This document shows, piece after piece, positions 3,039 through 18,468 of a stretch of DNA of 64,000 bases; the stretch's first letter is position 1; each line of letters begins with the position of its first letter. The notes beneath the pieces are model-generated. The model was not told the origin of the DNA and ran no database searches. It worked only from the letters and a program-made list of their open reading frames with translations. Source of the DNA: Pelodictyon luteolum DSM 273 (GTDB taxonomy: Bacteria; Bacteroidota; Chlorobiia; Chlorobiales; Chlorobiaceae); NCBI RefSeq assembly GCF_000012485.1, contig NC_007512.1, positions 1,241,001 to 1,305,000 on the forward strand. Direction: 5' to 3'. Position numbers and translations under genes: made by a program.

Positions 3039-3644
3039 ATGTCAACCAGGAAAACTCTCTGCCGCGCCATCCTCGCCGCATCGCTCTTTACTGCCGGACT
3101 CATTCCCGCTTCGGCACATGCCGTAGTTGCAGGACCGAGCGCATCAGGCAAAACAGACATGACCGTCACGATGCCGGAATACATCGTCCTCAGATACTAT
3201 GACAAAATCAGCCTGACATTCACCAGCGCGTCGGCAGCAACAGCTAAGGGCGACAAGTCTTTCGAAGCCACCTGGACTGGCGGTGATGCCACCCTGAACG
3301 CCGACGTGACCCTGCCGGATGAACTCGGTGCGGCCACAAGAAAGATCAAACTCCAGAATGCTTGGGCAATAGCCGGACTTTCACCCTCGGGAACGGCATC
3401 AGTAACCATCGAAGGAACCGACCTGACGAAAAAGGATAATTCAGGCTCAGCAGTTTCCACGATCGGTGTTGAGAACTGGACGGTTAGTGATGGAACCTCT
3501 GAATCCAATGCAATCACAACGACGTTGAGGGGTGTATCGGGAGGTGCAAAAAAAGGTGATGTGAACATGTCGCTGAATTTCAAGAATACGACCATGTCGG
3601 GAGACCATACCGGTACATTCACCATCACGGTGCAGACCATCTGA
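3039..3644 (+). CDS. Secreted pilin-like protein (family A, divergent copy)
   Basis: This 201-residue protein starts with a clear signal peptide (about 28 residues, ending near ASAHA). It is a paralogue of the proteins at 12356 and 13588: all share a VxMPEYIVLxYY stretch after the signal, an AIAGLSPSG segment and a C-terminal beta-strand ending TFTIT-x-x-TI. Such a short, Ser/Thr-rich, all-beta protein with an alternating hydrophobic C-terminal strand is what a chaperone-usher pilin looks like, but I cannot match it to a named pilin family. Its neighbour at 3760 is the paralogue of the gene that follows the 13588 copy. Role as a structural subunit is inferred from context. Confidence 0.7.
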   Translation: MSTRKTLCRAILAASLFTAGLIPASAHAVVAGPSASGKTDMTVTMPEYIVLRYYDKISLTFTSASAATAKGDKSFEATWTGGDATLNADVTLPDELGAATRKIKLQNAWAIAGLSPSGTASVTIEGTDLTKKDNSGSAVSTIGVENWTVSDGTSESNAITTTLRGVSGGAKKGDVNMSLNFKNTTMSGDHTGTFTITVQTI

Positions 3645-3670
3645 ACGAAACCCAATTGAATGGGATGCAG

Positions 3671-3706
3671 AAAATGCAGAAACTCTCGATCAAGTTTCTG
3701 CATTTT
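3671..3706 (+). terminator. Perfect 14-bp hairpin downstream of the first pilin-like gene
   Basis: A 14-bp perfect inverted repeat (3671-3684 and 3693-3706) with an 8-base loop is followed by CATTTTT. It lies 26 bp after the pilin stop. It could be an intrinsic terminator or a partial one that lowers expression of the gene at 3760 relative to the pilin. A hairpin sits at the same place in the paralogous cassette (14213-14246). Confidence 0.6.
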
Positions 3707-3759
3707 CATTTTTGGCTCATTTTCAAAATTCAGCTCCGCAATGCCACTGGAGGATCATC

Positions 3760-4377
3760 ATGATCACTGCAACACCAAACCGGCGCCTTACGCCAACTCC
3801 GATACTCTTGATGCTGTTGACGCTCCTGCATCAACCGCAGACGGGCCATGCTGACACGACAGCCACACTCTCTGTCCAGAAGAGCGCACCGCTCACCATA
3901 ATGGTTGAAGAACTTTACCCCGACAGCACCGGTCCGGTTTCAGCCGGAAGCAGATCTGTCGAGATGTCCTGGCTTGATGCGGATGACTCTATCGGGTCAC
4001 TTGAGCTAACCATCGATGCCTATACGTCAAGCATAAACGAACGCAGCATCAAGGACCTCTGGTACACCGATTCCTTCAGCACCACGAACGGTAAAAAGCC
4101 GGTTTTTAGGGCAGAATACAGCATCAACAGCCTGCCGTTCTCTGAAAAGGAACAAACCGTAGAGATTGCCAACACTCTGGGAACATCAAAAATTTCTGTC
4201 ACATTCAAGCCCCCCGCAATCGATGTAATCAAGACAAGCTCCGGCTTTTCTAAAACGTACAGGTTGCAGGCAGGCACAGCAGCCCTATCTTTTTCGACCA
4301 ATGAGACAACCGCTTCTGGTTCCTACCCGGTAACGATAACGACAGAGGTCACGCCCGACAACTTCAGTATTCAGTAA
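3760..4377 (+). CDS. Secreted minor-subunit-like protein (family B)
   Basis: The ATG at 3760 is preferred over an in-frame ATG at 3712 because GGAGG precedes it at normal spacing and a signal peptide follows (ending near GHA, about residue 31). The 205-residue product is a paralogue of the protein at 14284: both have a TATL strand after the signal, AYTSSxxxRxIxDLWxTD(A/S)F, a YSIN segment and a C-terminus of the form ASGxY...NFxxQ. The all-beta pattern suggests a second pilin-type subunit. It is separated from the preceding pilin gene by a strong hairpin. No named family recognised. Confidence 0.65.
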   Translation: MITATPNRRLTPTPILLMLLTLLHQPQTGHADTTATLSVQKSAPLTIMVEELYPDSTGPVSAGSRSVEMSWLDADDSIGSLELTIDAYTSSINERSIKDLWYTDSFSTTNGKKPVFRAEYSINSLPFSEKEQTVEIANTLGTSKISVTFKPPAIDVIKTSSGFSKTYRLQAGTAALSFSTNETTASGSYPVTITTEVTPDNFSIQ

Positions 4378-4521
4378 GAAACCCCGTCCCAACAGAACCG
4401 CCCGATACTCCCTGCCCGGATACTATACTTTCCATTTCTTTTCCTATATTTAGGATAAATCAAATCTTATTTGTACTGAAAGGACGCTTAACGCGGTTCA
4501 GCCCATATTCTCCAGCTAACC

Positions 4522-6606
4522 ATGACGCAGCCCCTTTTTCCCCAGGTACTCATGACGGCCTGTAATACCTGCCATAGAAATATTTCGCCACACATGCGCT
4601 ATGGCTATATCTATGCGCGCGTCCTCTTTGATGAAACTGGCCGTGCCGTAGATTTCATCCATGAAGAGGTCAATGAGAGCTACAGCAGGCTGACGGGCCT
4701 CCGGGGCATCATCGGCAAAAAGGCCACGGAGGTCTTTCCCGACCTTAAGCGCAACAATCCCGATTTTCTCGCCCGACATCTGAGGGTTGCTGAAACAGGC
4801 ATTTCAGATAGTTTAGAACTCTATCTGGAGGCGCTGGACCGCTGGTATGACATCTCTATATTCAGTACAGACACGGACCATTTCACCGCCATCATTGATG
4901 ATATCACGGCAAGGAAAGTTTCAGAAGAGGGCCTCCGGCAGTCAGAACAACGGTTCAGGACCCTCTTTGAAAACCATTCGGCATGCATGATGCTGCTTGA
5001 CGCTCATAGTGGCGAGATCATCGACACCAACGAAGCTGCCGCTGATTTCTACGGCTGGTCCGTCGATGAACTACGAAAGATGAACATTCTGGATATTGCG
5101 ACAGTATCAGCGGACCAGATCAACAGCAACCTCCGAAAAATGAGGACAGACAGGCAGAAGCGCTTCTCATTCGTGCATCACCTGAAAAACGGGGGGCTAC
5201 GGGATGTAGAACTGTTTACAAGCCTGATCAACATGAACGGAAGAGATGTACTCTACCACATCATTCACGACAACACCGAACAAGTCAGGCTTCAGGCAGT
5301 ATCTGCAATGCGAATTGAACTGCTGGAGATGTCGAGTTTCTCTTCGGCCGGAGTGATGCTCAGGGCCGTACTCGACCGCGCATGCCGGCTGACAGCCAGC
5401 CCTTCAGGCTTTGTCTTTTTCGTCACCGGTGACCAGCGGACACTCTCTCTGGAGGCTTGTAAAAACGAAGGAACGAAAACTACCTGCAATGGCCAGAAAC
5501 ATCCCTCATTGTTTGAAAAGGGTTCGCCATGGGCAGATGTCATACGCACAGGAAAACCTGCCATCCACAATGGACAAGCTGCCTTCATGCACTGCTGCCG
5601 CAATAACGCGGAGAGCAGTCAAGATAACAGTGAACTGGTGGTGCCGGTCATACGGGACAACGCTACCGTTGCAATTCTCGGGATTGGGGGCAAAGCTGTT
5701 GATTATGTCGACAAAGACATCGAGTTGCTCGAAACCCTGACCAATCAAGCCTGGGACATCATTGCAAAAAAAATAGCTGAAGAGAGCCGGAACTTGCTTC
5801 ATCAAAAGCTTCAAGTATCCTCGAAAATGGAACTTGTCGGACAGCTCGCAGCAGGAATTGCCCATGAAATAAACAATCCCCTGAACTTCATTCTCGCCAA
5901 TGAACAGAATCTGGAAAACAATTTCAGCGAACTGCTCTCTGTCATTGACACTTATCGGGATGGCAGAGATCCTCTGGTGGGTGCAGACAGAGAAGCCGGG
6001 CTCCTGAGCGGTGAGGATCTCGACTCGCTCATTGGCACCATCCACGCTTCACTTGAAAAAACCAGGACCGGTGTCGCCCGCATCAAAGAGATCAGCCAAA
6101 GCATGCAGAAGCATGCCTACCGGAACGCCTCTGGCAACTTCAGCCCGTTTGATATCAACAAGGCCATTGAGGAGATTGTTGTCATAACAAAAAATGAATG
6201 CCGCTCGGTGGCAGAGATCTCCTTGGATCTGGCACCGCTTCCTCCCGTACCCTGTGATCCGTCGCAGATCAATCAGGTGCTCTTGAACCTTGTGATGAAC
6301 AGCATCCACGCGATCAGGACCATGGCGCGGAAAGAAGTGGGAACCATAACCATATCGACCGGGTGTAACAATAAGGCGGTATCCTGTTCAGTACAGGATG
6401 ACGGCCCGGGTATTCCTGAAAAACTCAGGGAGAGGGTATTTGAACCCTTTTTCACCACGAAGGAGATGGGTGCAGGAACCGGCCTCGGCCTGAGCATCTG
6501 TCATGACATCATCGTCAACAGACATAGGGGAAACATACGGGTTGTCTGTCCGCAGAAAGGAGGATCCGTTTTCACGTTCTCCCTGCCACTCAAGGGTGCT
6601 CATTAA
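4522..6606 (+). CDS. Soluble PAS-PAS-GAF sensor histidine kinase
   Basis: This 694-residue protein has no obvious membrane segment and is probably cytosolic. Domain order: PAS (about 25-130), PAS (about 140-255), GAF-like (about 270-415), HisKA with the phospho-acceptor His448 in the AAGIAHEINNPLN H-box, then HATPase (about 560-690) with the N-box NQVLLNLVMN, the G1 box DDGPGIP and the G2 box GTGLGLSI. All catalytic boxes are intact. It resembles NtrB-like PAS kinases of environmental bacteria. No response regulator is adjacent; the nearest is at 11442, but that one has its own partner kinase. The signal sensed is unknown. Confidence 0.85.
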   Translation: MTQPLFPQVLMTACNTCHRNISPHMRYGYIYARVLFDETGRAVDFIHEEVNESYSRLTGLRGIIGKKATEVFPDLKRNNPDFLARHLRVAETGISDSLELYLEALDRWYDISIFSTDTDHFTAIIDDITARKVSEEGLRQSEQRFRTLFENHSACMMLLDAHSGEIIDTNEAAADFYGWSVDELRKMNILDIATVSADQINSNLRKMRTDRQKRFSFVHHLKNGGLRDVELFTSLINMNGRDVLYHIIHDNTEQVRLQAVSAMRIELLEMSSFSSAGVMLRAVLDRACRLTASPSGFVFFVTGDQRTLSLEACKNEGTKTTCNGQKHPSLFEKGSPWADVIRTGKPAIHNGQAAFMHCCRNNAESSQDNSELVVPVIRDNATVAILGIGGKAVDYVDKDIELLETLTNQAWDIIAKKIAEESRNLLHQKLQVSSKMELVGQLAAGIAHEINNPLNFILANEQNLENNFSELLSVIDTYRDGRDPLVGADREAGLLSGEDLDSLIGTIHASLEKTRTGVARIKEISQSMQKHAYRNASGNFSPFDINKAIEEIVVITKNECRSVAEISLDLAPLPPVPCDPSQINQVLLNLVMNSIHAIRTMARKEVGTITISTGCNNKAVSCSVQDDGPGIPEKLRERVFEPFFTTKEMGAGTGLGLSICHDIIVNRHRGNIRVVCPQKGGSVFTFSLPLKGAH

Positions 6607-6763
6607 ATATTTGCACCATAAGCTGGCGGCCTCCCGCCCCCGGAGGTATCAGGTTCATCATCAGGAAAAAGAAACAGAATTACGCAACTTGTCGAAATTG
6701 GTCGTACATTAACCTTATATAAGGACTCATCTATCTCCTGCCCCCAGAGCGGTATGATCATGG

Positions 6764-7069
6764 ATGCGCCCGGATATCATCCCGATGAGGGATGACTTCA
6801 AGCAGGATACACAGTCATTGATCATGGCGCCTTACACCACATGGTTTCTTCGCATCGGCATTGTGCTGCTCATTGCCTCAGTCCTGTCCCCTGACATCGT
6901 TGGGGCGTCACAACAGGCGGTTGTCCAGACGAAGATTTCCATCAACGTCTCAGAATCGTTCGTCCAGTACCTGCAGCAGCGAAGGAATGCCTCATCTGAA
7001 CGTCCGCTGAATCCGTCCCTTTCCCCTTCAGCGCCAGACAGCTCCGCTGTGGTTCCAGAGCGAAGCTGA
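6764..7069 (+). CDS. Small secreted or membrane-anchored protein, unknown
   Basis: This frame gives up to 101 residues. ATGs at 6764, 6785 and 6824 are all possible; the one at 6824 starts right at a hydrophobic stretch (about 18 residues) that looks like a signal peptide ending near VGAS. The rest is a short polar protein with the stretch QTKISINVSESFVQYLQ and a Ser/Pro-rich tail. It is not recognised. Its place just upstream of the TCAC promoter and the first chaperone operon suggests membership of the appendage locus, but coding is only moderately supported. Confidence 0.45.
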   Translation: MRPDIIPMRDDFKQDTQSLIMAPYTTWFLRIGIVLLIASVLSPDIVGASQQAVVQTKISINVSESFVQYLQQRRNASSERPLNPSLSPSAPDSSAVVPERS

Positions 7070-7081
7070 GCCGCCCGTTCA

Positions 7082-7145
7082 TCACATTTCATCACAAGAA
7101 ATCACCTTTCATGCCTTGTCTGCATGCGCCTCTCCATGGTATAAT
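7082..7145 (+). promoter_or_regulatory. Sigma-70-type promoter with three phased TCAC repeats
   Basis: TCAC occurs at 7082, 7092 and 7102, exactly 10 bp apart. The -35 box TTGTCT (7116-7121) and -10 box TATAAT (7140-7145) follow with an 18-bp spacer. The last TCAC starts 14 bp before the -35 box, the same distance as in the pilin promoter at 12209. Helically phased direct repeats next to the -35 box are typical of OmpR/PhoB-family activator sites, and such a regulator is encoded at 11442. Binding is inferred. Confidence 0.7.
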
Positions 7146-7193
7146 TAAGGAGATCAATTGTCTTGTTTAGTCCGAATACACTGGAGAGCTGAG

Positions 7194-7697
7194 ATGCGTC
7201 ATACTATCATGATTGCAAAACTCATGACATGCATAGCTTTGGCTGCCATCCTCAACGCAGCCCCCGTATACGGTGGAGGAGCGGCTGCAAACAAGGAGAT
7301 GGAACTCATTGCACCGAAAACCGGTGAAGTGGACAGTGTGGGTGTCGGCAGCAATGGCTTATGCGTGTATTGCACCAATATCTCCTGTGAATGCATAACA
7401 CGGCGGGTGGAACCGCTATGGACATGGACGCTGCAGGATGAGCACTTTCCCATCCTGCAGACCCGATACTGCGTCAAGGGACCAGATGGGAGGAGAGATG
7501 TGTTCATTAACCCTGAGAACCCTTCATCGCCTATCATCGTGCATCTGAAGCCCATGGGGATAAAAGCTGTTGAGTACATCAATGACCAATGGCTCATGCA
7601 TGAGGGTGTAGAATTGGTGCTACAGCTGCCTGAAGACGTCATACCCGGAAGATATGACGGCGTCATCACCGCATTGATCACCATCACCAATATCTGA
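7194..7697 (+). CDS. Cys-containing secreted protein of the appendage locus
   Basis: The ATG at 7194 has GGAGAG upstream and starts a signal peptide (about 25 residues, ending near VYGGG); the in-frame start at 7158 is less likely. The mature part has a Cys cluster (CVYC, SCEC) and one further Cys (YCVKG), which could form periplasmic disulfides. The C-terminus reads PGRYDGVITALITITNI, an alternating hydrophobic strand like that of pilin subunits. It is the first gene after the TCAC promoter and lies 12 bp before the chaperone gene. A subunit role is inferred; no family is recognised. Confidence 0.65.
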   Translation: MRHTIMIAKLMTCIALAAILNAAPVYGGGAAANKEMELIAPKTGEVDSVGVGSNGLCVYCTNISCECITRRVEPLWTWTLQDEHFPILQTRYCVKGPDGRRDVFINPENPSSPIIVHLKPMGIKAVEYINDQWLMHEGVELVLQLPEDVIPGRYDGVITALITITNI

Positions 7698-7709
7698 AGG
7701 AGCCGTATC

Positions 7710-8561
7710 GTGAAAGCCAACTCCATTTCAACGGCATTCCGCTTGAACAGGATCATCATAGCAATAATGCTCTGGCTCTGCATGCCGATGACGGCCGCAG
7801 TGGCTTCAGGTTGTGCGGGACAGATACAGATAGAGCCGGTAATGTTTGATCTGCATTCCGGTAAGCATGGTGCTCAGCAGACCATTCGCCTTTTCAACAA
7901 CAAAGATGACGCAGTCGTCCTCGATGTTGAGATCTGCAACTGGACGTTCGATGGCAATGGAAGCCTTGTGGTTGAACCCTCAAGCACTGCCCCTCTTGCA
8001 GGCTGGATTGACTTTCCGGAAAAAATCATCACCATTCCATCCGGACAGCAGAGGTCCGTTCAATTTTCAGTTCATCCGCCCGAAAACGCAGCGCCCGGAG
8101 AGTATCGGGCCATAATATATTTTCAGGAACATAAGCCCGAAAAGATCAATGATCTTGTTGAAGTGAGTTTCAGGATTGGTGCGGGAGTCTATTTCCAGAT
8201 AGGAGAAATCAGACGCCACCCCGTCATTGAATCTGTTTCGTTTGATGATGGTACCGGAGGAATCGTCATGGTGATAAGAAACAAAGGAAATATCCATACG
8301 AACTTTCATGGTGATTATTCAGTGTGGGAGAAAGGTTCGTTCCCTGGATTCCAGCGTATGAAGGAAATAATTTCCCGGCCGCATGAAGAGGAACGCCCAA
8401 AAGGGTTCATCAAGAGCGGGAGCATGAATCTCACTCCGGTGCTCCCCGGAATAAGGAGCTCGATCCTCACAAGACTCGGCATACCTGACATGTCCAAAGA
8501 TTTCGACATTGCCGTAACAGGAAGTATCGACGGGAAAACGATACAGAAGCTTCTGAAATGA
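7710..8561 (+). CDS. PapD-like periplasmic chaperone (first copy)
   Basis: The GTG at 7710 has GAAGGAG at good spacing. The 283-residue product has a signal peptide followed by a two-domain immunoglobulin-like fold pattern: IEPVMFDL at the mature N-terminus, QQTIRLFNNKDDAVVLDVE (strand pairing typical of PapD/FimC), the SVQFSVHPPENAAPGEYRAIIYF segment in two parts, and a C-terminal domain with RNKGNIHTNFHGDYSVW. It is clearly paralogous to the chaperone at 14966 (shared NWTxDGN, PGEYRAIIYF and KGSFPGF stretches). Its role is to cap subunits in the periplasm. Its stop overlaps the next start by ATGA, so the genes are translationally coupled. Confidence 0.75.
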   Translation: MKANSISTAFRLNRIIIAIMLWLCMPMTAAVASGCAGQIQIEPVMFDLHSGKHGAQQTIRLFNNKDDAVVLDVEICNWTFDGNGSLVVEPSSTAPLAGWIDFPEKIITIPSGQQRSVQFSVHPPENAAPGEYRAIIYFQEHKPEKINDLVEVSFRIGAGVYFQIGEIRRHPVIESVSFDDGTGGIVMVIRNKGNIHTNFHGDYSVWEKGSFPGFQRMKEIISRPHEEERPKGFIKSGSMNLTPVLPGIRSSILTRLGIPDMSKDFDIAVTGSIDGKTIQKLLK

Positions 8562-9391
8562 AATACTGCCGAATGAAATACGTAGCCATAGCTCTTACCT
8601 GTGCAGTCTTTTCAACTCTGGCTTTTGCCCGGGCACAGGCAGCAGAGAAAGCTATAATCATCACCGGATCAACTTCAATTTCATCGGCCGCTGAAGCGCT
8701 TGGCTCAGAGTTTGCAAGAAATACAGGTATACCGGTGATGGTTACGACATCGAATTCCGGACAGGGTGCAAAGCTTTTGGCCGTCGGAACATCATCGATT
8801 GCGGCGATGTCGCGGACCATGAATCTTGATGAAATAGATGCGGCAAGGGCAAACGGAATTGAACCCAACGCGCACTTCATTGCGTTCGGAGCTCTTGTGA
8901 TCGTGGTCAACCAGGCCAATCCGGTTACAGCCCTGAAGGTGGAGGAGCTTCATAGACTCTATTCTGGAGCCTGCTTCAACTGGAAGGAGCTTGGAGGAGT
9001 CGATGAACCGGTGATCCTTGTTCGACGGGAATACGGGAGCGGAACGCAGGAGACATTTACTGACATGGTCATGGGACAGGCAAACCCGATGACAGCAAGT
9101 GCCCTCATTGAAATCAGCAACAAGGCTGTCCGCCGCCGCGTAGCAGAAACACCAGGGGCGATAGGGTTCATCAGTCACGGATTTCTTGACGCTACCGTCA
9201 AATCACTCAGCATCAACGGCGTAACCCACTCAACGGACGCTATTTTGAACGAGACCTACCCGCTGACCCGGAGCCTGTACTTCTATACCGATGGAAAACC
9301 GGAAGGCAACGTTTCAAGGTTTCTGAAGCTGACAGAATCAATGGAAGGAAAACAGATACTCAGCAATGCAGGATTTGTGACCAAACCTTAA
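8558..9391 (+). CDS. PstS-like periplasmic substrate-binding protein
   Basis: This 277-residue protein has a signal peptide and the phosphate-binding-protein pattern: GSTSISSAAEALGSEF, TTSNSGQGAKLLAVGTSSIAAMSR, ALVIVVNQANPV, RREYGSGTQETF and PGAIGFISHG. These are the places where PstS binds its anion. No pst permease or ATPase gene is nearby; instead it overlaps the chaperone gene by ATGA and is followed 12 bp later by a sensor kinase. It may therefore serve as a ligand-sensing partner of the kinase rather than a transporter subunit. That role is inference. Confidence 0.8.
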   Translation: MKYCRMKYVAIALTCAVFSTLAFARAQAAEKAIIITGSTSISSAAEALGSEFARNTGIPVMVTTSNSGQGAKLLAVGTSSIAAMSRTMNLDEIDAARANGIEPNAHFIAFGALVIVVNQANPVTALKVEELHRLYSGACFNWKELGGVDEPVILVRREYGSGTQETFTDMVMGQANPMTASALIEISNKAVRRRVAETPGAIGFISHGFLDATVKSLSINGVTHSTDAILNETYPLTRSLYFYTDGKPEGNVSRFLKLTESMEGKQILSNAGFVTKP

Positions 9392-9403
9392 ACTATCCTG
9401 CCG

Positions 9404-11407
9404 GTGCCACCCCCCTGCCGCCAAAAATCCATCCATGCCAAAGCGGCAGCAATCCTGAGAGGATGCATACTTCTTGCACTCTCAGTGGTTCTCCCTTTTT
9501 CTGCGATGCTTTCAGGAGATGAGGCATCGGCTCGTGAGCATGGCACAGACTCATCCTTCAGCCTCGCAGGCCATATGGAGCAGTATGTGGATGAAACCGG
9601 CCAGCTTACCCTCACTAAGGCTCTGCAGCCCGCCATCCAGTCAAAATTCACGCACATCGCAGGACACCTCAACACCGGGCATATCGATCATCCGGTATGG
9701 CTCAAGGCCACCGTACGGACAGAGGATGGATTTCCACGGCACACCATCCTTTCCATCGGCCCGCCCTCCCTTGAACGGCTGAGGGTCTATGTGCAGACAG
9801 GCAATGACCCGTCGAGTCCTGCCTCGTACCGTGAATACAGGCTCGGAGCCGACATCCCCGCCTCACAGCGGACATTGCTCACACCACAGTTTGCGGTCCC
9901 TCTCGTGCTCGACAACGTTCGACCAACCACAATCCTTATCCGGGTTGAACCCGGCATCGCAATCAGCCTTTTCGCCACGATTCTGACGCCCGAAGACCTC
10001 TACGGCCAGACCAACATGCTGCTCCTGCTCCAGGGAGCCTATCTCGGCATTATCCTCATTACCGCACTCTTCAGCATTTTCAACTTCTACCGCCTGAATG
10101 AATCGCCCTACCTCTACTTCGGGCTGTTCGTTCTCTGCATATTCTGCTTTATCCTCTCCGGGGAAGGGATCCTTGTGCTTGCACTTCCCCAACAGGCACA
10201 TCTGGTCACCGAGTTCATCCGCCGGACAGCCATGGCGTTGAGCTTCGTGTTTCTGGCACTGTTCGGCCGGAGCATCCAGAGGGCCCGTTCCCATCCCTTT
10301 GCCTCGCGCTACCTGCTGTTCATATCCATACTCAGCGGCATTACCGCCCTGTCTGCGCCGTTCTGGCTGTATAAGGATCTCGCTACGGCATCCATGATTG
10401 GCGCACTCGGAATGATGATGATCCTGATCCATATTTCATCAATCCTTGTCATGGAAAGGGAGCCGGGCTCAAAGATGTATCTCGCTGCTTTCGTCATCAT
10501 TCAGGCTGGTTATGTCCTCCAGCTGCTCCGGCATTTCGGTGTCGTCCCGCTTGAATGGTGGAGCAGCAATCCCATGCCGTTTTTCTTCCTGCTCGCCATA
10601 ATCCTTATCTCGTTCGCCTTGACTGAACGGCTGAGGGAATCGCGGCTTGCTGCAGAGGAGATGTCGATTGAACTCCGGAATAACCGTGATGTGCTTGAAA
10701 AGTCTCTGGCCGTACAGGAAAACATGGGCGCGCGAAAAAAGCGCCTGATTGATATGATTTCACATGAATACCGCACTCCCATTGCCATCATTAGAGCAAA
10801 TATTGACATCATGATGCTCAATGAAGCAAGTCAGTCAAAAGAGGCTGCCAGCCGTTTCTGCAAAATAAATCGAGCCATCCAGCGCCTTGTGGAGATTATG
10901 GACATATCTCTTGAGGAAAGCCAGCATGATGATCCGAGAGATACCCGAAACCCTCAGTCAATGAGGATTGACGAGTTCTTGTCTCAGGAGTATGTCGCCG
11001 AAATAACATCCCGTTTCAATCTCTCGGCCCGGATGTCTGAAAGCATTGGAAACCATTGCATCAAAGCCGATGCGGCACAACTGAAAACAGCCCTTTTCAA
11101 TCTGCTCGACAACGCCGGAAAATACTCTGTCCCCGGCAGCCGGATCCTCCTTGAATGCAGTGTCGAGCAGAGCTGGATGGTAATGAGGTTACGAAACCGG
11201 GTTGAAGAGTGCTTCATTCGAGAGGGGGATGAGCTGTTTGAGCAGTATCGGCGAGGACGCAACAGTACGAACACTGCCGGTGCAGGGCTAGGACTCTGGA
11301 GGGTACGCCGTATTGTCGAGCACCATCACGGCCGGGTTGCCATTGAGCGGAATACCGAAGAATTTATTGCTACTTTACGTATTCCAGTAATCCTCACCTC
11401 AGAATAA
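9404..11407 (+). CDS. 7TMR-DISM-type membrane sensor histidine kinase
   Basis: The GTG at 9404 gives 667 residues. Order: hydrophobic signal segment (about 15-35), extracellular DISM-type sensory domain (about 45-195), seven hydrophobic segments (about 200-400), a short coiled linker, HisKA with His454 in the MISHEYRTPIAIIRAN H-box, and HATPase with the N-box NLLDNAGKYS and the G2 box GAGLGLWRV. The usual DxGxG G1 box is replaced by an RNRVEE stretch, a variation known in some kinases of this type. It lies between the PstS-like gene and the response regulator (34 bp gap), so these probably form one signalling unit. Confidence 0.85.
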   Translation: MPPPCRQKSIHAKAAAILRGCILLALSVVLPFSAMLSGDEASAREHGTDSSFSLAGHMEQYVDETGQLTLTKALQPAIQSKFTHIAGHLNTGHIDHPVWLKATVRTEDGFPRHTILSIGPPSLERLRVYVQTGNDPSSPASYREYRLGADIPASQRTLLTPQFAVPLVLDNVRPTTILIRVEPGIAISLFATILTPEDLYGQTNMLLLLQGAYLGIILITALFSIFNFYRLNESPYLYFGLFVLCIFCFILSGEGILVLALPQQAHLVTEFIRRTAMALSFVFLALFGRSIQRARSHPFASRYLLFISILSGITALSAPFWLYKDLATASMIGALGMMMILIHISSILVMEREPGSKMYLAAFVIIQAGYVLQLLRHFGVVPLEWWSSNPMPFFFLLAIILISFALTERLRESRLAAEEMSIELRNNRDVLEKSLAVQENMGARKKRLIDMISHEYRTPIAIIRANIDIMMLNEASQSKEAASRFCKINRAIQRLVEIMDISLEESQHDDPRDTRNPQSMRIDEFLSQEYVAEITSRFNLSARMSESIGNHCIKADAAQLKTALFNLLDNAGKYSVPGSRILLECSVEQSWMVMRLRNRVEECFIREGDELFEQYRRGRNSTNTAGAGLGLWRVRRIVEHHHGRVAIERNTEEFIATLRIPVILTSE

Positions 11408-11441
11408 CGATACCATAAACCATCAGGACGACACAAGAACC

Positions 11442-12167
11442 ATGGACAGCAATGCTCATCCGGCTGACGGAAAGCCGATCCTTTACGTTGAAGATGACGC
11501 TGATCTCAGGGAAGCCATGATCGAGTACCTGGAGAAAATCGGACATCGTGTCACCGGCGTAGGTACGGCAAAAGCATTTTATGAAGCACTCTCCGGAGGG
11601 TCGTTTGCGCTTGCAATCATCGATATCGGCCTTCCAGACCAGAGCGGCCTTGTGCTTGCAGACCATGTCCGCCAACACACCCTCATGCGCATCATCATGC
11701 TGACGGCGCACTCGACACTTGACGACAAAATCGGAGGGTACCAGTCCGGAGCCGACATTTATATGACAAAGCCTGTAGACTGCCGTGAACTCTCGGCAGC
11801 AATTAACAGCATGTTTGAGCGCATGCCCTCTGCCCTGCGACAAACGAACGAAAATACCGTACAGTCTTCCTCATGGAGGCTTATGAAAAGCGACTGGGTT
11901 CTTCGCTCACCCTCAAATATTCCCATCCAGCTTACCTCGAAGGAATATGAGCTGATCATGTTCCTGATCCAGCAGGACACAGCAGTCATTTCCCGCGCGG
12001 AGATCCTCAAACACCTTGATTACCCCTATAACGAATACGGAAGCCTTGCCCTCAAGTCGCTCGTCTACCGTCTCAGAAAGAAAATGGATGATGCCGGATG
12101 CACTTTTCCGATAAAAACCATCCATGGAACCGGATACGCTCTCTCATCCCCCATTTCGATCGCCTGA
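11442..12167 (+). CDS. OmpR/PhoB-family response regulator
   Basis: This 241-residue protein has an N-terminal receiver domain (about 6-122) with the acidic pair in YVEDD, phospho-acceptor Asp61 in IIDIGLPD, LTAHS and Lys110 in TKPVD, and a C-terminal winged-helix domain (about 140-235) with KEYELIMFLIQ, SRAEILKHL and IKTIHGTGYAL. It is partnered with the kinase just upstream. It probably binds the TCAC repeats before 7194 and 12356. Its 3' half (from base 11804) is duplicated 1,232 bp downstream. Confidence 0.9.
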   Translation: MDSNAHPADGKPILYVEDDADLREAMIEYLEKIGHRVTGVGTAKAFYEALSGGSFALAIIDIGLPDQSGLVLADHVRQHTLMRIIMLTAHSTLDDKIGGYQSGADIYMTKPVDCRELSAAINSMFERMPSALRQTNENTVQSSSWRLMKSDWVLRSPSNIPIQLTSKEYELIMFLIQQDTAVISRAEILKHLDYPYNEYGSLALKSLVYRLRKKMDDAGCTFPIKTIHGTGYALSSPISIA

Positions 12168-12208
12168 GTCTCTCCGCTCCTGTCTGACTGCACGCCCCAC
12201 AGCTCAGA

Positions 12209-12280
12209 TCACCTCCATCACAATTCGTCACCCGATGTCACCTTTCGTGCCTTGTGAGGGGCACCTTCATGGGTTATAAT
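12209..12280 (+). promoter_or_regulatory. Promoter of the pilin operon with four phased TCAC repeats
   Basis: TCAC begins at 12209, 12218, 12228 and 12238 (spacings 9, 10, 10). A -35 box TTGTGA (12252-12257) and a perfect -10 box TATAAT (12275-12280) follow with a 17-bp spacer. The last repeat starts 14 bp before the -35 box, as at 7102/7116. Bases after the repeats are also shared with the 7082 promoter (CACCTTTC-x-TGCCTTGT). This is the best candidate binding site for the regulator encoded just upstream. Confidence 0.75.
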
Positions 12281-12283
12281 AAT

Positions 12284-12341
12284 AGGTGAAAATAGATCCT
12301 ATTTAAGGGATCGACAAAGTAACCGATTTATCTGTTCACCT
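12284..12341 (+). other. Structured 5' leader of the pilin mRNA
   Basis: An outer inverted repeat AGGTGAA (12284-12290) / TTCACCT (12335-12341) encloses an inner GATCC/GGATC pair. It lies between the -10 box and the start codon at 12356, so it would form a stem in the leader RNA. It may stabilise the mRNA or influence translation. The same leader is present in the duplicate copy, 1,232 bp further on. Confidence 0.45.
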
Positions 12342-12355
12342 TAAACACTACTATC

Positions 12356-12967
12356 ATGACTACGAAATCTACTCTCTCGCGCGTCATTCTCTGTGCCGCC
12401 CTCCTTGCAGCAGGAGCACTGCCCCAGACAGCATATGCTGACCGGGGTGAGTCTGGAGAATCAGTTTCGGGAACGACAAACCTGAAGGTGGTCATGCCGG
12501 AATATATCGTCCTGCATTACTACAGCGACATTCAGCTTTCGTTCACGGCAGCATCTTCAGCCGAATCAGATGGAACACTCAGCCCCTTGACGGCAAGCTG
12601 GACCACTGCGACTGAAGGTGGCGAGGTCTTCGACGCCAACATAACCAGTGCTGCAGAGGCTGGAGATGCAACAAGGGCGATAACGCTCAAAAATGTCTGG
12701 TCGATAGCAGGCCTATCGCCCTCCGGGGAAGCAAGGGTGTCGATCACAGGAACTGATCTCGAGAAGGACGACAGCAGCTCCAAAATAGATACAGAAGACT
12801 GGAAAGTGGCTGTGGGCAGCAATGCAGGAAAAAGCATCGAGACAGACCTGAGAGGAATCTCGGGCAAGCAGACCAAAGGCGATGTCAAGATGACGCTCAA
12901 TTTCGCAAACACCACCGAGTCGGGTGAGCATGATGGAAGCTTCACCATCACCGCCATCACCATCTAG
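12356..12967 (+). CDS. Secreted pilin-like protein (family A, duplicate copy 1)
   Basis: This is a 203-residue protein with a signal peptide (about 27 residues, ending near AYA), the VVMPEYIVLHYYSDIQLSF region near the mature N-terminus, and a C-terminal strand ending GSFTITAITI. No cysteine is seen in the mature part. It differs from the 13588 copy by one residue (Ser versus Ala in the signal peptide) and is a more distant paralogue of the 3039 protein. The strong promoter, structured leader and gene doubling suggest the major subunit of the appendage. That role is inferred, since no named pilin family is recognised. Confidence 0.75.
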   Translation: MTTKSTLSRVILCAALLAAGALPQTAYADRGESGESVSGTTNLKVVMPEYIVLHYYSDIQLSFTAASSAESDGTLSPLTASWTTATEGGEVFDANITSAAEAGDATRAITLKNVWSIAGLSPSGEARVSITGTDLEKDDSSSKIDTEDWKVAVGSNAGKSIETDLRGISGKQTKGDVKMTLNFANTTESGEHDGSFTITAITI

Positions 12968-12980
12968 CCCTCAGACCTTG

Positions 12981-13014
12981 TGCAGGTTGCCGTGCAACAG
13001 AACGGCAATCTGCA
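12981..13014 (+). other. Hairpin after pilin copy 1
   Basis: A 13-base inverted repeat (12981-12993 and 13002-13014, one G-U pair, 8-base loop) lies 13 bp after the pilin stop. No T run follows, so it is more likely an mRNA-protecting or partial-stop structure than a full terminator. It is identical to the hairpin at 14213-14246. Confidence 0.6.
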
Positions 13015-13035
13015 TAGGAATAGTGAAGTAAAGGC

Positions 13036-13399
13036 TAACAGCATGTTTGAGCGCATGCCATCTGCCCTGCGACAAACGAACGAAAATACCGTACAGTCTT
13101 CCTCATGGAGGCTTATGAAAAGCGACTGGGTTCTTCGCTCACCCTCAAATATTCCCATCCAGCTTACCTCGAAGGAATATGAGCTGATCATGTTCCTGAT
13201 CCAGCAGGACACAGCAGTCATTTCCCGCGCGGAGATCCTCAAACACCTTGATTACCCCTATAACGAATACGGAAGCCTTGCCCTCAAGTCGCTCGTCTAC
13301 CGTCTCAGAAAGAAAATGGATGATGCCGGATGCACCTTTCCGATAAAAACCATCCATGGAACCGGATACGCTCTCTCATCCCCCATTTCGATCGCCTGA
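13036..13399 (+). pseudogene. Truncated response regulator copy (DNA-binding half only)
   Basis: This is the second copy of the 3' half of the regulator gene, created by the tandem duplication. It keeps residues from about 122 to the end, that is the winged-helix domain, and lacks the receiver domain with Asp61. An in-frame ATG at 13043 would give 118 residues; the frame also opens back to a GTG at 12980 inside the hairpin, which is an unlikely start. If translated from the pilin transcript, the free DNA-binding domain could occupy the TCAC sites. It is probably a passenger of the duplication. Confidence 0.8.
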
Positions 13400-13440
13400 C
13401 TCTCTCCGCTCCTGTCTGACTGCACGCCCCACAGCTCAGA

Positions 13441-13512
13441 TCACCTCCATCACAATTCGTCACCCGATGTCACCTTTCGTGCCTTGTGAGGGGCACCTTC
13501 ATGGGTTATAAT
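13441..13512 (+). promoter_or_regulatory. Second copy of the TCAC promoter
   Basis: This is the duplicate of the 12209-12280 promoter with all four TCAC repeats, TTGTGA (13484-13489) and TATAAT (13507-13512) preserved. It should drive the second pilin copy and the genes downstream, including the chaperone and usher. Confidence 0.75.
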
Positions 13513-13587
13513 AATAGGTGAAAATAGATCCTATTTAAGGGATCGACAAAGTAACCGATTTATCTGTTCACCTTAAACACTACTATC

Positions 13588-14199
13588 ATGACTACGAAAT
13601 CTACTCTCGCGCGCGTCATTCTCTGTGCCGCCCTCCTTGCAGCAGGAGCACTGCCCCAGACAGCATATGCTGACCGGGGTGAGTCTGGAGAATCAGTTTC
13701 GGGAACGACAAACCTGAAGGTGGTCATGCCGGAATATATCGTCCTGCATTACTACAGCGACATTCAGCTTTCGTTCACGGCAGCATCTTCAGCCGAATCA
13801 GATGGAACACTCAGCCCCTTGACGGCAAGCTGGACCACTGCGACTGAAGGTGGCGAGGTCTTCGACGCCAACATAACCAGTGCTGCAGAGGCTGGAGATG
13901 CAACAAGGGCGATAACGCTCAAAAATGTCTGGTCGATAGCAGGCCTATCGCCCTCCGGGGAAGCAAGGGTGTCGATCACAGGAACTGATCTCGAGAAGGA
14001 CGACAGCAGCTCCAAAATAGATACAGAAGACTGGAAAGTGGCTGTGGGCAGCAATGCAGGAAAAAGCATCGAGACAGACCTGAGAGGAATCTCGGGCAAG
14101 CAGACCAAAGGCGATGTCAAGATGACGCTCAATTTCGCAAACACCACCGAGTCGGGTGAGCATGATGGAAGCTTCACCATCACCGCCATCACCATCTAG
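13588..14199 (+). CDS. Secreted pilin-like protein (family A, duplicate copy 2)
   Basis: This protein is the same as the 12356 product except for one residue in the signal peptide (STLARVI instead of STLSRVI). The mature proteins are identical, so the duplication raises dosage rather than diversity. It is followed by the minor-subunit-like gene, the second chaperone and the usher, so this copy holds the original position in the operon. Confidence 0.75.
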   Translation: MTTKSTLARVILCAALLAAGALPQTAYADRGESGESVSGTTNLKVVMPEYIVLHYYSDIQLSFTAASSAESDGTLSPLTASWTTATEGGEVFDANITSAAEAGDATRAITLKNVWSIAGLSPSGEARVSITGTDLEKDDSSSKIDTEDWKVAVGSNAGKSIETDLRGISGKQTKGDVKMTLNFANTTESGEHDGSFTITAITI

Positions 14200-14212
14200 C
14201 CCTCAGACCTTG

Positions 14213-14246
14213 TGCAGGTTGCCGTGCAACAGAACGGCAATCTGCA
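14213..14246 (+). other. Hairpin between pilin copy 2 and the downstream genes
   Basis: This is a 13-base stem (14213-14225 with 14234-14246, one G-U pair) without a T run. Its position after an abundant pilin gene and before accessory genes fits the known pattern in which a stem-loop favours the major subunit message. A different hairpin occupies the same place at 3671-3706. Confidence 0.6.
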
Positions 14247-14283
14247 TAGGAATAGTGAAGTAAAGGCTATTATATTTACCCTT

Positions 14284-14940
14284 ATGGTAACCAGGAGCAG
14301 CAGCATAGCGCATGACAGAAACACAGGGAGTGCGAGCTCTCATCCCAGCAGGGCAATGACGGCACTGGTGGCTTTTTTTATTTCGGCTCAATTCTTTCTT
14401 GCCCTATCTATATCGTATGCCGAAACTGATCGGACTGCAACCCTGTATTTCCGGAACGATGCGCCAATAAGCATCACGGTCGGGGAGATATATCCTGGAC
14501 AGACAGGAGCAGTGGCCATCGGGAGCTACTCTGCAGAAATCCTCTGGAATGAACAATACGAAAGCAGCGCTACGCTTGATATTGATACCCCGGCCTATAC
14601 ATCATCAGTAGAGCAGCGTACCATTGAGGATTTGTGGCATACCGATGCGTTCAGGACTGATAACGGCAGATCGCCCGATTACAGGGTCACCTACAGCATC
14701 AACAACTCGCCATATAGTGAAAATCAGCAGTCGGAGTATTTCTACAACAGCGACCGCTCCTCTAAAATCAGAATTACCTTCACTCCCCCCCGGATCACCG
14801 AGGATAAAAGCGATAAATCTTATATCCTTAAGGCGGAGCCGGCTGTAATTACGTTCAAAGTAACCGATGCAACGGCCTCAGGTACTTATTCGGGAAGCAT
14901 TGACACCCGGATTTCTGCCGCCAACTTCAAGGTCCAATAA
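14284..14940 (+). CDS. Secreted minor-subunit-like protein (family B)
   Basis: The frame is open from a GTG at 14212, but that codon lies at the hairpin and is also present in the other duplicate copy, so it is not a credible start. ATGs at 14284 (218 residues) and 14356 (194 residues, starting directly at the signal peptide MTALVAFFISAQFF) are possible; neither has a clear ribosome site. The mature protein matches the 3760 product over TATLYF, PAYTSSVEQRTIEDLWHTDAF and the C-terminal ASGTYSGSI. It is probably a minor or tip subunit. Its C-terminus ends 25 bp before the chaperone start. Confidence 0.65.
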   Translation: MVTRSSSIAHDRNTGSASSHPSRAMTALVAFFISAQFFLALSISYAETDRTATLYFRNDAPISITVGEIYPGQTGAVAIGSYSAEILWNEQYESSATLDIDTPAYTSSVEQRTIEDLWHTDAFRTDNGRSPDYRVTYSINNSPYSENQQSEYFYNSDRSSKIRITFTPPRITEDKSDKSYILKAEPAVITFKVTDATASGTYSGSIDTRISAANFKVQ

Positions 14941-14965
14941 TCAGAATTCGGTCTTTCTCCCCCAG

Positions 14966-15781
14966 ATGAAATACTTGTTACGCATTGCTGCCCTTCTTCT
15001 GCTGTGCACTGCACCCCTCTCCAGCCTGATGGCCGGTGATCCACCCGGGCAGATTGCCGTATCGCCGTCCATGTTCGAACTCAACATCGGCACAAAACCG
15101 CTCACCCAGTCAATCCGGCTGAAAAACCTCAAGAAGCATCCCATCATTCTTAAGGTGGATGTCTATAACTGGACGCTAGATGGCAACAACAGCCTGAAAG
15201 AGATCGCGCCCACCGCGCAATCCATCGACCAATGGATGATCATCAACCCGGTATCGTTCACCATTGACCCTGGCAAGGAGCAGGTTATCCGGTTTTCCAT
15301 CCGTCCGACTACGACTCCGGACCCCGGAGAACACCGCGCAATCATTTTTTTTACCGAACAGCCCCCGAAAGACAAGGCAGGAGGCGTTGAAGTACTCTTC
15401 AAGCTTGGCGTGGCAGTATACGCCTATGCCGACCCGATCCGTCACGCCGGCGTACTGACATCCATTTCGCTGGACAGGGCAGGAAGCATGATCAAGGTAG
15501 GACTGCAGAACAGCGGCAATGTCCATACCCGCCTGAAGGGCGAGTATTCGATATGGAAACCGGGAAGTTTTCCGGGATTCAAGAAAACAGGAATGGATTT
15601 GACCAAAGAACAGCCAGAAGGATTCATTGCCGGAGGAAACATGAACAACACTCCGGTTCTTGCCGGAAACCGTCGAGTGATTACGACATCGATTCCCCTT
15701 CCTGCAGAAAATAAGGGCTCCTATGTCGTTGCCGTGCAGGGAACTGTCGATGACCGGAAAATTGAGAAGGTGTTTCCATAG
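14966..15781 (+). CDS. PapD-like periplasmic chaperone (second copy)
   Basis: The ATG at 14966 starts a signal peptide (about 24 residues); an in-frame extension back to 14867 overlaps the previous gene and is less likely. The 271-residue product has the chaperone pattern IAVSPSMFELNIG, TQSIRLKNLKKHPIILKVDVYNWTLDGN, QVIRFSIRP, PGEHRAIIFF and QNSGNVHTRLKGEYSIW. It is a paralogue of the 7710 chaperone. Two chaperones with one usher suggests each escorts different subunits. It lies directly before the usher gene. Confidence 0.78.
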   Translation: MKYLLRIAALLLLCTAPLSSLMAGDPPGQIAVSPSMFELNIGTKPLTQSIRLKNLKKHPIILKVDVYNWTLDGNNSLKEIAPTAQSIDQWMIINPVSFTIDPGKEQVIRFSIRPTTTPDPGEHRAIIFFTEQPPKDKAGGVEVLFKLGVAVYAYADPIRHAGVLTSISLDRAGSMIKVGLQNSGNVHTRLKGEYSIWKPGSFPGFKKTGMDLTKEQPEGFIAGGNMNNTPVLAGNRRVITTSIPLPAENKGSYVVAVQGTVDDRKIEKVFP

Positions 15782-15822
15782 GAGACGCTTCGATTCACCA
15801 AGGCATAAAGCATTCCCCGTCA

Positions 15823-18468
15823 TTGCCCCCCAGCACCGCACATAGCATCCGGCGCTTCATGCTGCTGCCGTTCCTCTGCATCATGCTCATGCCGCTACCC
15901 GCGGCACATGCTGCTGAAGGTATCCTTCAAAACGACACGCCAAAGGCTCTTTCAAGCACGCCGCGCGCATCCATGTCGGATGCCGAGCCCCTGCTTGTCG
16001 GGATATACTTCAACCGCGTACTTCAGGCAGAGGAAACCATCTACCATGAATCAGAGGAATACTGGATGCCGTTTGAACTCTTTCTCAAACAAACCGGGCT
16101 GAAGGAGCAGGAACGTCAAGGCTCAGTTGCATCCTATGCCACCAACCTCGGAACACTCCGCTTTGACACTGCATCCCTGAAGGAGTTCGAGGGCACAGTC
16201 TGCATAGCATTCACGGACCTGAAAACCGTATTCATCTCCACACCGGTTTTTGACTATTCCCTCTTCGCCGTCATGCTTAATATTCCCTGGCAACCCGGTG
16301 CCCGGCCAAAGCGGGAGCGTGAAGTGCCAGACATCAAGGCACCGGCAGGAACGGTTTCCTATGTCGGCCTGGAGGCCCGGGGCAGCTATGATTTCGAGTC
16401 GGCAACCAATAAAAGCATGCTCGTTGAATCTGCAGGACGAGGGCTCGGCGGCGTTTGGAACATCACCGGATCCGGCGAGTCCAATGAAGCAGGAGATACC
16501 TTCACCCCTACCCGTTATACGTGGACGACCTTCAATAGAAACCTGGCATTCCGCATCGGTACCGGCTATTCCGGGAGCTATTCTCTGATCGGTCCATCCT
16601 ATATGACCGGCGTGCAGTTCGGATGGAACAACCACAGCATCATCCGCCAGCTTGATGCCGAGCAGGGATATGGCAGCGACAGCTTCCTCAGTTTCGACTC
16701 CAACCAGCTGCGTACCCTTGAAGGATCGGGTCCTCCTGGAGGCATCGCTGAACTGCGGTTTGATGGTGAGGTGGTTGCCCGCCAGCGACTGAAACTTGAT
16801 GGTCGCTTTGCATTCGAAAATGTAAGGATGGACAGCGATCTGCGAAAGACAGAGGTCTACATCTATTTTCGTTCCATCAATGAAAATCCACTCAAGGTTA
16901 TCGACTTCAGCCAGACCGTCGCCAGCCGTTCTCTTCCAGCCGGCGAAATCATGGTTCGGGGAGGGGCGGGACGTACTGGCAATGTTCTGGACGGCGAATC
17001 CGGATCAAGCCGCAACAATGAAGCGTTCGCAAACGTCCTCTATGGCATCAGCCAGCGGGTCACCCTTGAAACAGCGATACAGGAAAACCCTGCAACAGGG
17101 ACACCCGATATGCTTGCCGGTACCGTATTGTCCATAGCAAACAACTGGACAACGGCACTCTATGGAGCACAGTCCAACAGGCACAGTGCAGCCGACGTCC
17201 GCGTGGAGGGAGGCAACAGGAACTGGAATGCGTCGTATTGGGGATCACTGCAGGATGCCGGGTACGGGAGCGCCACTGCAGCGAAAGAACAGCGTCATGC
17301 CCTGAGGCTGAGTCTTCGGCCCATGCAGGAACTGACCCTTCAGGCCATCGGCAGTTATCAGGTCCAGGCTGACAGTCTCACGCTTCACTACCTCCTCCCT
17401 GCCGGCACCATCGCCCCCCTGACATGGCTCAGCCTTTCGGCTACCCCGCACGACGACAAGACATACCGGTACGAATCATGGGTACGGCTTGGCAATAACG
17501 ACCGGCTGCGCGGGATCTATGACAATGCAATCGTTTCACTCGATTACCAGCACAACCTTTCACGCCAGCTGAACATGCGGCTTGTCAACGACTATGCCTT
17601 TAAGTCAGGCGACATGGTCACCAACTTCGGCATAGACTGGTACCCCGGAAACAGCTCCAGCGACATCATTGCGACCGTCCTCTCATACTCCGGAGGGTCC
17701 TATGGCATATCGGGGTCATGGAGCCGCTACCTCAATACCGGACTGAGGTTCGCCATGCAGTACACCTTCAATATGAACAACGCAGCAAATCTGGCGACGA
17801 CAGACATCGAGTCTGCATACGGCAGCAGCACAACATCGGCAAAAAGCATCTCCCTCAGCATGTCCTGGGACCTCGGCTGGTCAAACAGGGGCTTCATACC
17901 CATCAACCGCAATGCAGTCACCCTGACCAGAGGTGCACTGGCCGGCTCGCTTGACATTGCCAACGAGTCCAGCCTCTCCGCATCAGACATCAATGACATC
18001 CAGATACTCCTGAACGGGAGGCGCATGCAGCAACGCCAGCTGAACGGAGATTTCTTTGTCGGCGGCCTCCCTCCAGGGATTTACCGGGTTTCTGTCGATC
18101 AGGAAAACCTGCCGATTGAGCTGGTGACCGAAAAAAATGAAGTGAGGGTTGAAATCAAGAACGGTGCGGTGACGGGCATGAAGATCCCCGTCTATGCCGA
18201 ATACGGTGCTGCTGGCATGGTACGGGGCGCCGGGGGCGAGAGTATTGGCGGCGCCGTCGTAAGGGTGTCGGATGCGGAGGGGACGACCATTAAAAAAGCC
18301 GTAACAAACCAGTTCGGCTATTACAGGGTAGACGGACTCCGGGCCGGCACGTATCAGGCTGTCGTGGAATCCAATGGAGGAATAAGGATAGAATCACCAT
18401 CTAAAATGCAGTTCAGCATCATCGATGACTACGTGTTCAACGTCAACCTGACGGCGGCTGACCACTGA
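15823..18468 (+). CDS. Outer-membrane usher-like protein
   Basis: This frame gives 881 residues from a TTG at 15823; an ATG at 15859 directly before the hydrophobic signal (MLLPFLCIMLMPLPAAHA) is an alternative start. After an N-terminal periplasmic part (about 35-180) comes a long beta-rich barrel-like region with a usher-type middle insertion (GPPGGIAELRFDGEVVARQ, then GRFAFENVRM), followed by NDIQILLNGRRMQQRQL and LPPGIYRVSV. The C-terminus (about 800-870) is a carboxypeptidase-regulatory-like beta domain (GGAVVRVSDAEG, NQFGYYRVDGL, GTYQAVVES). This layout matches divergent ushers that secrete and assemble pili. Assignment rests on overall pattern and on the chaperone and pilin-like neighbours. 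Confidence 0.7.
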   Translation: MPPSTAHSIRRFMLLPFLCIMLMPLPAAHAAEGILQNDTPKALSSTPRASMSDAEPLLVGIYFNRVLQAEETIYHESEEYWMPFELFLKQTGLKEQERQGSVASYATNLGTLRFDTASLKEFEGTVCIAFTDLKTVFISTPVFDYSLFAVMLNIPWQPGARPKREREVPDIKAPAGTVSYVGLEARGSYDFESATNKSMLVESAGRGLGGVWNITGSGESNEAGDTFTPTRYTWTTFNRNLAFRIGTGYSGSYSLIGPSYMTGVQFGWNNHSIIRQLDAEQGYGSDSFLSFDSNQLRTLEGSGPPGGIAELRFDGEVVARQRLKLDGRFAFENVRMDSDLRKTEVYIYFRSINENPLKVIDFSQTVASRSLPAGEIMVRGGAGRTGNVLDGESGSSRNNEAFANVLYGISQRVTLETAIQENPATGTPDMLAGTVLSIANNWTTALYGAQSNRHSAADVRVEGGNRNWNASYWGSLQDAGYGSATAAKEQRHALRLSLRPMQELTLQAIGSYQVQADSLTLHYLLPAGTIAPLTWLSLSATPHDDKTYRYESWVRLGNNDRLRGIYDNAIVSLDYQHNLSRQLNMRLVNDYAFKSGDMVTNFGIDWYPGNSSSDIIATVLSYSGGSYGISGSWSRYLNTGLRFAMQYTFNMNNAANLATTDIESAYGSSTTSAKSISLSMSWDLGWSNRGFIPINRNAVTLTRGALAGSLDIANESSLSASDINDIQILLNGRRMQQRQLNGDFFVGGLPPGIYRVSVDQENLPIELVTEKNEVRVEIKNGAVTGMKIPVYAEYGAAGMVRGAGGESIGGAVVRVSDAEGTTIKKAVTNQFGYYRVDGLRAGTYQAVVESNGGIRIESPSKMQFSIIDDYVFNVNLTAADH

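Follow-up and report, generated by a model that had tools for sequence, protein, structure and literature searches.

The 64-kb window analysed here, a whole stretch of Pelodictyon luteolum DNA, is part of a single 2,364,842-bp contig of a Chlorobiaceae genome. Positions 3039-18468 hold a candidate chaperone-usher (CU) pilus locus, with A-type and B-type pilin-like genes (pilA and pilB), two chaperone genes (chap1 and chap2) and a gene for an usher, among which lie a short secreted protein (s101), two histidine kinases, a response regulator and a PstS-like protein (Table 1). Both kinases, the regulator, the PstS-like protein and the second chaperone are outside the conserved core. A first-pass annotation, made from the sequence alone, had described the region as a CU-like appendage locus. 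Every gene that it listed is present, and the PF13620 domain at the C-terminus of the usher-like protein, the 7TMR-DISM histidine kinase, the OmpR-type regulator and the PBP_like_2/PstS-like protein were all found, but the history of the A genes and the identity of a Cys-containing protein needed correction. The folds of the usher and pilins, the family to which the chaperone belongs and its signature residues, the synteny and the duplication were computed here.

Table 1 Features of the putative pilus locus in the window.
Feature	Position	Strand	Evidence or remark
PilA1, A-type (probable major) pilin, 201 residues	3039..3644	+	Homologues precede the chaperone-usher pair in relatives; own-genome profile E 4.7e-69
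PilB1, B-type pilin	3760..4377	+	Family A3; homology with the PilA family by hhalign (E 6.9e-8)
PAS-GAF-HisKA histidine kinase, probably outside the conserved core	4522..6606	+	Pfam
s101, 101-residue protein with short secreted mature part, first cassette gene	6764..7069	+	Kept in 9 loci
B-type pilin with lineage-specific cysteines, second cassette gene	7158..7697 (likely start 7194)	+	Homology to family B
chap1, second PapD-like chaperone, third cassette gene	7710..8561	+	39% to chap2
PstS-like periplasmic binding protein	8558..9391	+	PF12849 6e-36; TIGR02136 1.5e-58, slightly under cut-off
7TMR-DISM membrane histidine kinase	9404..11407	+	PF07695, PF07696, HisKA, HATPase_c
OmpR-type response regulator	11442..12167	+	PF00072 and PF00486
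Tandem duplication, copy 1 (regulator 3' half and pilA2)	11804..13037	+	Direct repeat
PilA2, A-type pilin	12356..12967	+	AlphaFold2 model m9f64ae0fb97a; nearest solved structures mostly CU pilins
Truncated regulator copy, DNA-binding domain only	12980..13399	+	PF00486 1.5e-13, without receiver domain
Tandem duplication, copy 2	13036..14269	+	Direct repeat
PilA3, near-identical to PilA2	13588..14199	+	Copy from the duplication
PilB2, B-type pilin	14284..14940 (open frame from 14212)	+	Own-genome profile E 1.2e-73
chap2, main PapD-like chaperone	14966..15781	+	PF00345 3.8e-7; P95, R124, R189 and donor strand conserved
Usher, 881 residues	15823..18468	+	AlphaFold2 model m944312bf2718; Foldseek and VIA-align to FimD/PapC

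The AlphaFold2 model of the usher, built with 16 homologues, contains an N-terminal domain (residues ~50-155), a barrel (~178-687) in which six strands precede a plug (~307-361) and further strands follow it, and C-terminal domains (~705-880). FimD and PapC have six strands before the plug as well. When the model is compared with the PDB by Foldseek, structures of FimD or PapC fill the first 18 ranks (best E 2.6e-26, ~900 columns), and VIA-align places PapC and FimD first, with a Z of 16.4 to the PapC pore. Among the matches listed by VIA-align, full-length ushers align over ~440-560 residues and generic porins over ~230-280, and only ushers exceed ~350 aligned residues. The usher assignment of the first-pass annotation is borne out, as the model matches FimD/PapC over the full length and includes the N-terminal domain and plug whose absence that annotation had named as a refutation.

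Probabilities from hhalign against FimD-like or EcpC-like ushers are low, and therefore the likeness in sequence was judged by shuffled controls. None of 100 shuffles scores as well as the N-terminal part against the FimD N-terminal domain or as the C-terminal part against EcpC, and none of 60 as well as the full usher against two Deinococcus ushers. The C-terminal part matches FimD no better than chance (47 of 100 shuffles as good), and the plug is likewise not above chance against that of FimD. In phmmer and hmmsearch comparisons with PDB sequences, essentially the CarboxypepD-like domain alone is matched. The idea that this CarboxypepD_reg domain is an extra module was rejected, since model residues 878-880 align to FimD 833-834, the end of FimD. 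As modelled, the domain occupies the position of the ushers' last domain.

Both PapD-like chaperones named in the first-pass annotation are present. Chap2 exceeds the PF00345 (PapD_N) cut-off (30.6 bits versus 23), and the same profile matches 15 of its 18 relatives at E up to 1. Pro59 and Arg89 of CsuC have described roles as non-classical chaperone residues (PMC4654587). We mapped these residues by aligning CsuC to a Deinococcus chaperone and then to the 18-row alignment of the chap2 family. P95 of chap2 is the equivalent of Pro59 (kept in 17 of 18 rows), R124 that of Arg89 (16 of 18), and R189, kept in 17 of 18, fits the position of Arg174. All four positions of the donor strand V-x-V-x-F-x-L are hydrophobic in every row, and the donor residue at position 0 (residue 147, placed through the CsuC-Deinococcus alignment) is L, I or Y in all 18. 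The chap2 profile reaches CfaA with E 0.035, covering the same signature residues. By its sequence, chap2 bears the signature of the non-classical (archaic/alternative) chaperones. Chap1 keeps the arginine and has lost the equivalents of P95 and R189.

The PilA and PilB families are homologous and form one superfamily. In the PilA2 model, the C-terminal strands are confident, and CU pilins of all three CU types (FimG, CfaB, CfaE, CsuA/B, and CooA) make up most of the nearest solved structures; CfaB, CooA, and CsuA/B are closest, with CfaB and CooA ranked first. The model aligns with solved pilins from residue 48 to the end, with residues ~28-47 outside the alignment and a modest Z. Its end coincides with C-terminal strand F of the solved pilins, and no strand is seen beyond. 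What gives this model-based evidence its weight is that a single functional class predominates at the top of the ranking. The first-pass annotation saw an alternating hydrophobic strand at the end of every small secreted protein. This feature does not serve as a diagnostic: the alternation score of the pilin-like C-termini lies at the 48th-77th percentile of other windows of the same protein, which is not above background, and the 101-residue protein ends otherwise. A terminal strand matching pilin strand F is, however, present in the PilA model. The same annotation counted two family-B pilins and a separate Cys-containing protein. The two B-type pilins are there, but because the 7158-7697 protein is homologous to family B, the window holds three B-type subunits. 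Cysteines were rejected as a defining feature of this protein, as none of its four closest relatives has them. PilA probably forms the rod, and PilB is probably a minor or tip subunit.

The core set of pilA, (pilB), chaperone, and usher genes occurs in ~28 of the 86 Chlorobiaceae genomes, as counted by full-length or long matches to the usher profile. The order is conserved: pilA, usually a B-type gene, chaperone, usher. Elsewhere in the 394 genomes of the phylum, the C-terminal CarboxypepD_reg region of the profile alone matches, and none of the sampled Bacteroidota outside Chlorobiaceae has the core set. No description of the PilA-type lineage was found in the literature that could be searched. 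As far as it can be tested, the earlier suggestion of an undescribed clade holds.

Because the predicted structures of the usher and pilins match those of CU systems, the chaperone residues are of the non-classical kind, and synteny is kept in many relatives, we read the locus as a CU assembly locus, in agreement with the first-pass annotation. Very likely, it is a non-classical CU pilus system of a Chlorobiaceae-specific lineage, for which a fibre is predicted. Several observations weigh against this reading. Each pilin match is weak by itself (Foldseek E 0.003-0.02, Z ~6, where the caution line of the tool is 8), the confidence of the usher model is modest (mean pLDDT 67.8, falling below 50 in parts of the plug region), an equivalent of the CsuC Tyr196 anchor could not be placed in the chap2 alignment, and no two-domain tip adhesin was found. 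In addition, the Pfam Usher profile (PF00577), proposed as a check in the first-pass annotation, gives no match in the own genome, the usher missing the curated cut-off, and yields zero ushers over the cut-off across 296 genomes of the phylum. The missing match is not decisive, because EcpC of E. coli, which is recognised as an alternative usher, has no PF00577 match either.

Part of the same evidence would also fit a narrower reading, in which green sulfur bacteria acquired a system of the alternative (alpha, CFA/ECP-like) clade and do not have a separate lineage. Against EcpC, but not against FimD, the C-terminal part of the usher scores above all shuffles, EcpC has the same CarboxypepD_reg affinity, CfaB and CooA head the ranking for the pilin model, and CfaA is within reach of the chaperone profile. 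We consider this placement unlikely, as TcfC (PF16967) is found in none of 16 ushers and a single one reaches CooC_C (PF15976, E 0.078), whereas EcpC scores 7e-21 and 6e-19 with these two profiles, and R189 of chap2 lies two residues after the CfaA arginine. Moreover, within the plasmid collection, the CU chaperones of Deinococcus are the nearest in sequence. This proximity, together with the match of the usher profile to Deinococcus ushers above shuffles, would suit an archaic (sigma) clade member that is sister to the Deinococcus systems; outside Proteobacteria, archaic systems are listed in Cyanobacteria and Deinococcus-Thermus only (PMC4654587). Membership of the archaic clade is somewhat less likely than not: identity to Deinococcus is only ~24%, the A subunits have no SCPU (PF05229) match whereas Deinococcus subunits give weak ones, the C-terminal part of the usher resembles EcpC, and a branch as long as 3.65 changes per column separates the Deinococcus chaperones. 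On Deinococcus plasmids (L077, L079), the ushers adjacent to CU chaperones are annotated as hypothetical proteins.

The locus in the window is an expanded form of the Chlorobiaceae-specific system, because relatives lack the intervening genes. Loci L019, L020, L032, and L033, as far as their contigs extend, keep one or both flanks of the window locus (a 526-residue protein before, an aminotransferase after), and where the stretch is available, none of the genes that separate pilB1 from pilA2 in the window is present but s101 (L019, L020). Part of the expansion is a direct repeat of ~1,234 bp with a spacing of 1,232 and four mismatches (11828, 12104, 12168, and 12377), taking in the regulator gene's 3' half, the intergenic region, and pilA2. 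Since the repeat spans the regulator 3' half through pilA2, pilA3 and the 139-residue regulator fragment are recent copies. The fragment is 98% identical to the full regulator across residues 119-241 and is probably a by-product of the duplication, and the regions upstream of pilA2 and pilA3 are identical across 187 nucleotides. The three family-A genes of the first-pass annotation are indeed present, but two of them (pilA2 and pilA3) are copies from this 1,232-bp tandem duplication. The recent duplication and the truncated regulator copy could be taken as signs of a degenerate or silent locus, whose redundant genes no longer build a fibre. We regard this as very improbable, as the core genes are all intact open frames, and ushers are 33-68% identical across many genomes with occasional in-frame stops, mostly at the frame start or where the profile match overruns the frame end.

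Between pilB1 and pilA2 lies an usher-less cassette (6764-8561) in the order s101, third B-type subunit, chap1. In three genomes (G015, G027, and G007), s101, a subunit of the 7158-7697 type, and a chaperone follow one another as they do in the window, but away from the usher locus. With L098, L099, and L100 beside the window, the cassette order is kept in four genomes. Chap1 clusters on a long branch with the usher-less chaperones of three genomes (91/91 support). Because three genomes share the gene order and chap1 groups with their chaperones, the data suggest that the cassette is a conserved accessory unit that brings its own chaperone. The mature part of s101 contains a conserved 'TKxxIxxSES' strand and, compared with the start of PilA, scores above all but 3 of 200 shuffles, a suggestive resemblance of s101 to an isolated PilA start. 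It is rather doubtful that the cassette is an add-on acting in trans with the single usher of the genome, with s101 as a free donor strand for starting, capping or tuning the fibre. Its existence prompts one to ask if sets of chaperone and subunit can be swapped between loci, with a single usher serving them.

The kinase-regulator pair at 9404-12167 is directly upstream of pilA2. A 7TMR-DISM kinase with an OmpR regulator of this type is common in Chlorobiaceae and adjoins surface-protein genes in most loci examined: DUF4402 chaperone-usher pili (L110 and L115, and nearby in L111), a lone DUF4402 gene (L112), apparent two-partner secretion pairs as judged by eye (L123, L124, and L127), and giant repeat-like proteins (L120 and L122). 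No surface-protein gene is evident beside the pair in L121 and L126. Because this type mostly stands beside surface-protein genes, the self-regulation named in the first-pass annotation, here local control of the putative pili by the pair, is plausible from gene neighbourhood. The arrangement is not seen at other PilA-type loci, and no promoter motif common to the upstream regions of pilA1 and pilA2 rises above shuffles. The pairs lie directly upstream of adhesin genes in L110, L112, L115, L120, L122, L123, L124, and L127, as if each locus had its own switch. The 4522-6606 kinase has no counterpart in the other CU loci examined, save a weak kinase match.

The PstS-like gene overlaps the chap1 stop by 4 nucleotides. 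It was rejected as a conserved component, as such a gene stands beside the CU locus in two genomes only. In the second (L023, 17208-18035), it follows the usher and encodes a protein 37% identical to that of the window, and because of this identity the two genes may have been recruited separately.

From these features we infer donor-strand exchange, fibre formation, subunit roles, regulation, and the service of a second chaperone to the single usher. PilA and PilB would reach the periplasm by their signal peptides, where the G1 strand of the main chaperone would complete their unfinished immunoglobulin fold and its conserved arginine would anchor the subunit C-terminal carboxylate. The N-terminal domain of the usher would then receive the chaperone-subunit complexes, and the fibre would be threaded through the plugged pore as subunits exchange donor strands. 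The local membrane kinase-regulator pair upstream of pilA2 probably controls expression. The ancestral operon may have been pilA-pilB-s101-chaperone-usher, expanded in this strain by a tandem duplication that gave the third pilA, with the usher-less cassette lying within the operon.

DUF4402 genes over the Pfam cut-off are found in 17 of the 86 genomes of the family. In most DUF4402 loci examined there are PapD-like chaperones, several of them above the PapD_N cut-off, as well as ushers of ~915-1188 residues, which end in a CarboxypepD-like domain of the same kind as that of the window usher. Loci L110, L111, L113, L114, L116, L117, L118, and L119 represent this second Chlorobiaceae chaperone-usher lineage with DUF4402 pilins. 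The usher-like protein of L110 (10106-13669) matches PF07833 (copper amine oxidase N-terminal domain) at residues 341-429 (7.6e-6), perhaps a sign that the N-terminal domains of ushers are related to that fold. Green sulfur bacteria would join the hosts of CU systems with two separate lineages, a PilA type, recognisable mainly by predicted structure, and a DUF4402 type. The standard Usher profile misses both, and therefore surveys of the pathway probably undercount it. Green sulfur bacteria must hold extracellular sulfur globules and partner cells. Accounts of these bacteria name type IV and Tad pili only (PMC11269200, PMC7762298), and the locus is a candidate adhesin system for them.

Compared with known systems, the window usher shares with FimD/PapC of type 1 and P pili the N-terminal domain, the plugged barrel, and the C-terminal domains, whereas its C-terminal part has no detectable sequence similarity to theirs and its chaperone, unlike those of classical systems, has no conserved basic residue in the first strand. 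ECP and CFA/I resemble the window locus in the CarboxypepD-reg affinity of the usher C-terminal domain and in the chaperone arginine; EcpC shares the missing PF00577 match, and ECP also has two chaperones (EcpB and EcpE) in one system. In contrast to ECP and CFA/I, the window has no TcfC by Pfam, no MatB/CS1 pilin match, and no large tip adhesin, and belongs to another phylum. Csu of Acinetobacter and the Deinococcus plasmid loci have the Pro59/Arg89 signature and the register-shifted donor strand, and the pilin model is close to CsuA/B and the usher similar to those of Deinococcus above shuffles; unlike archaic systems, the window has no SCPU pilins, a CarboxypepD-like last usher domain, and no CsuE-like two-domain adhesin. 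The DUF4402 loci differ in their pilins and have a chaperone and usher only remotely similar to those of the window, but they share a PapD_N chaperone adjoining an usher with a CarboxypepD-like C-terminus, and some stand beside the same type of kinase-regulator pair.

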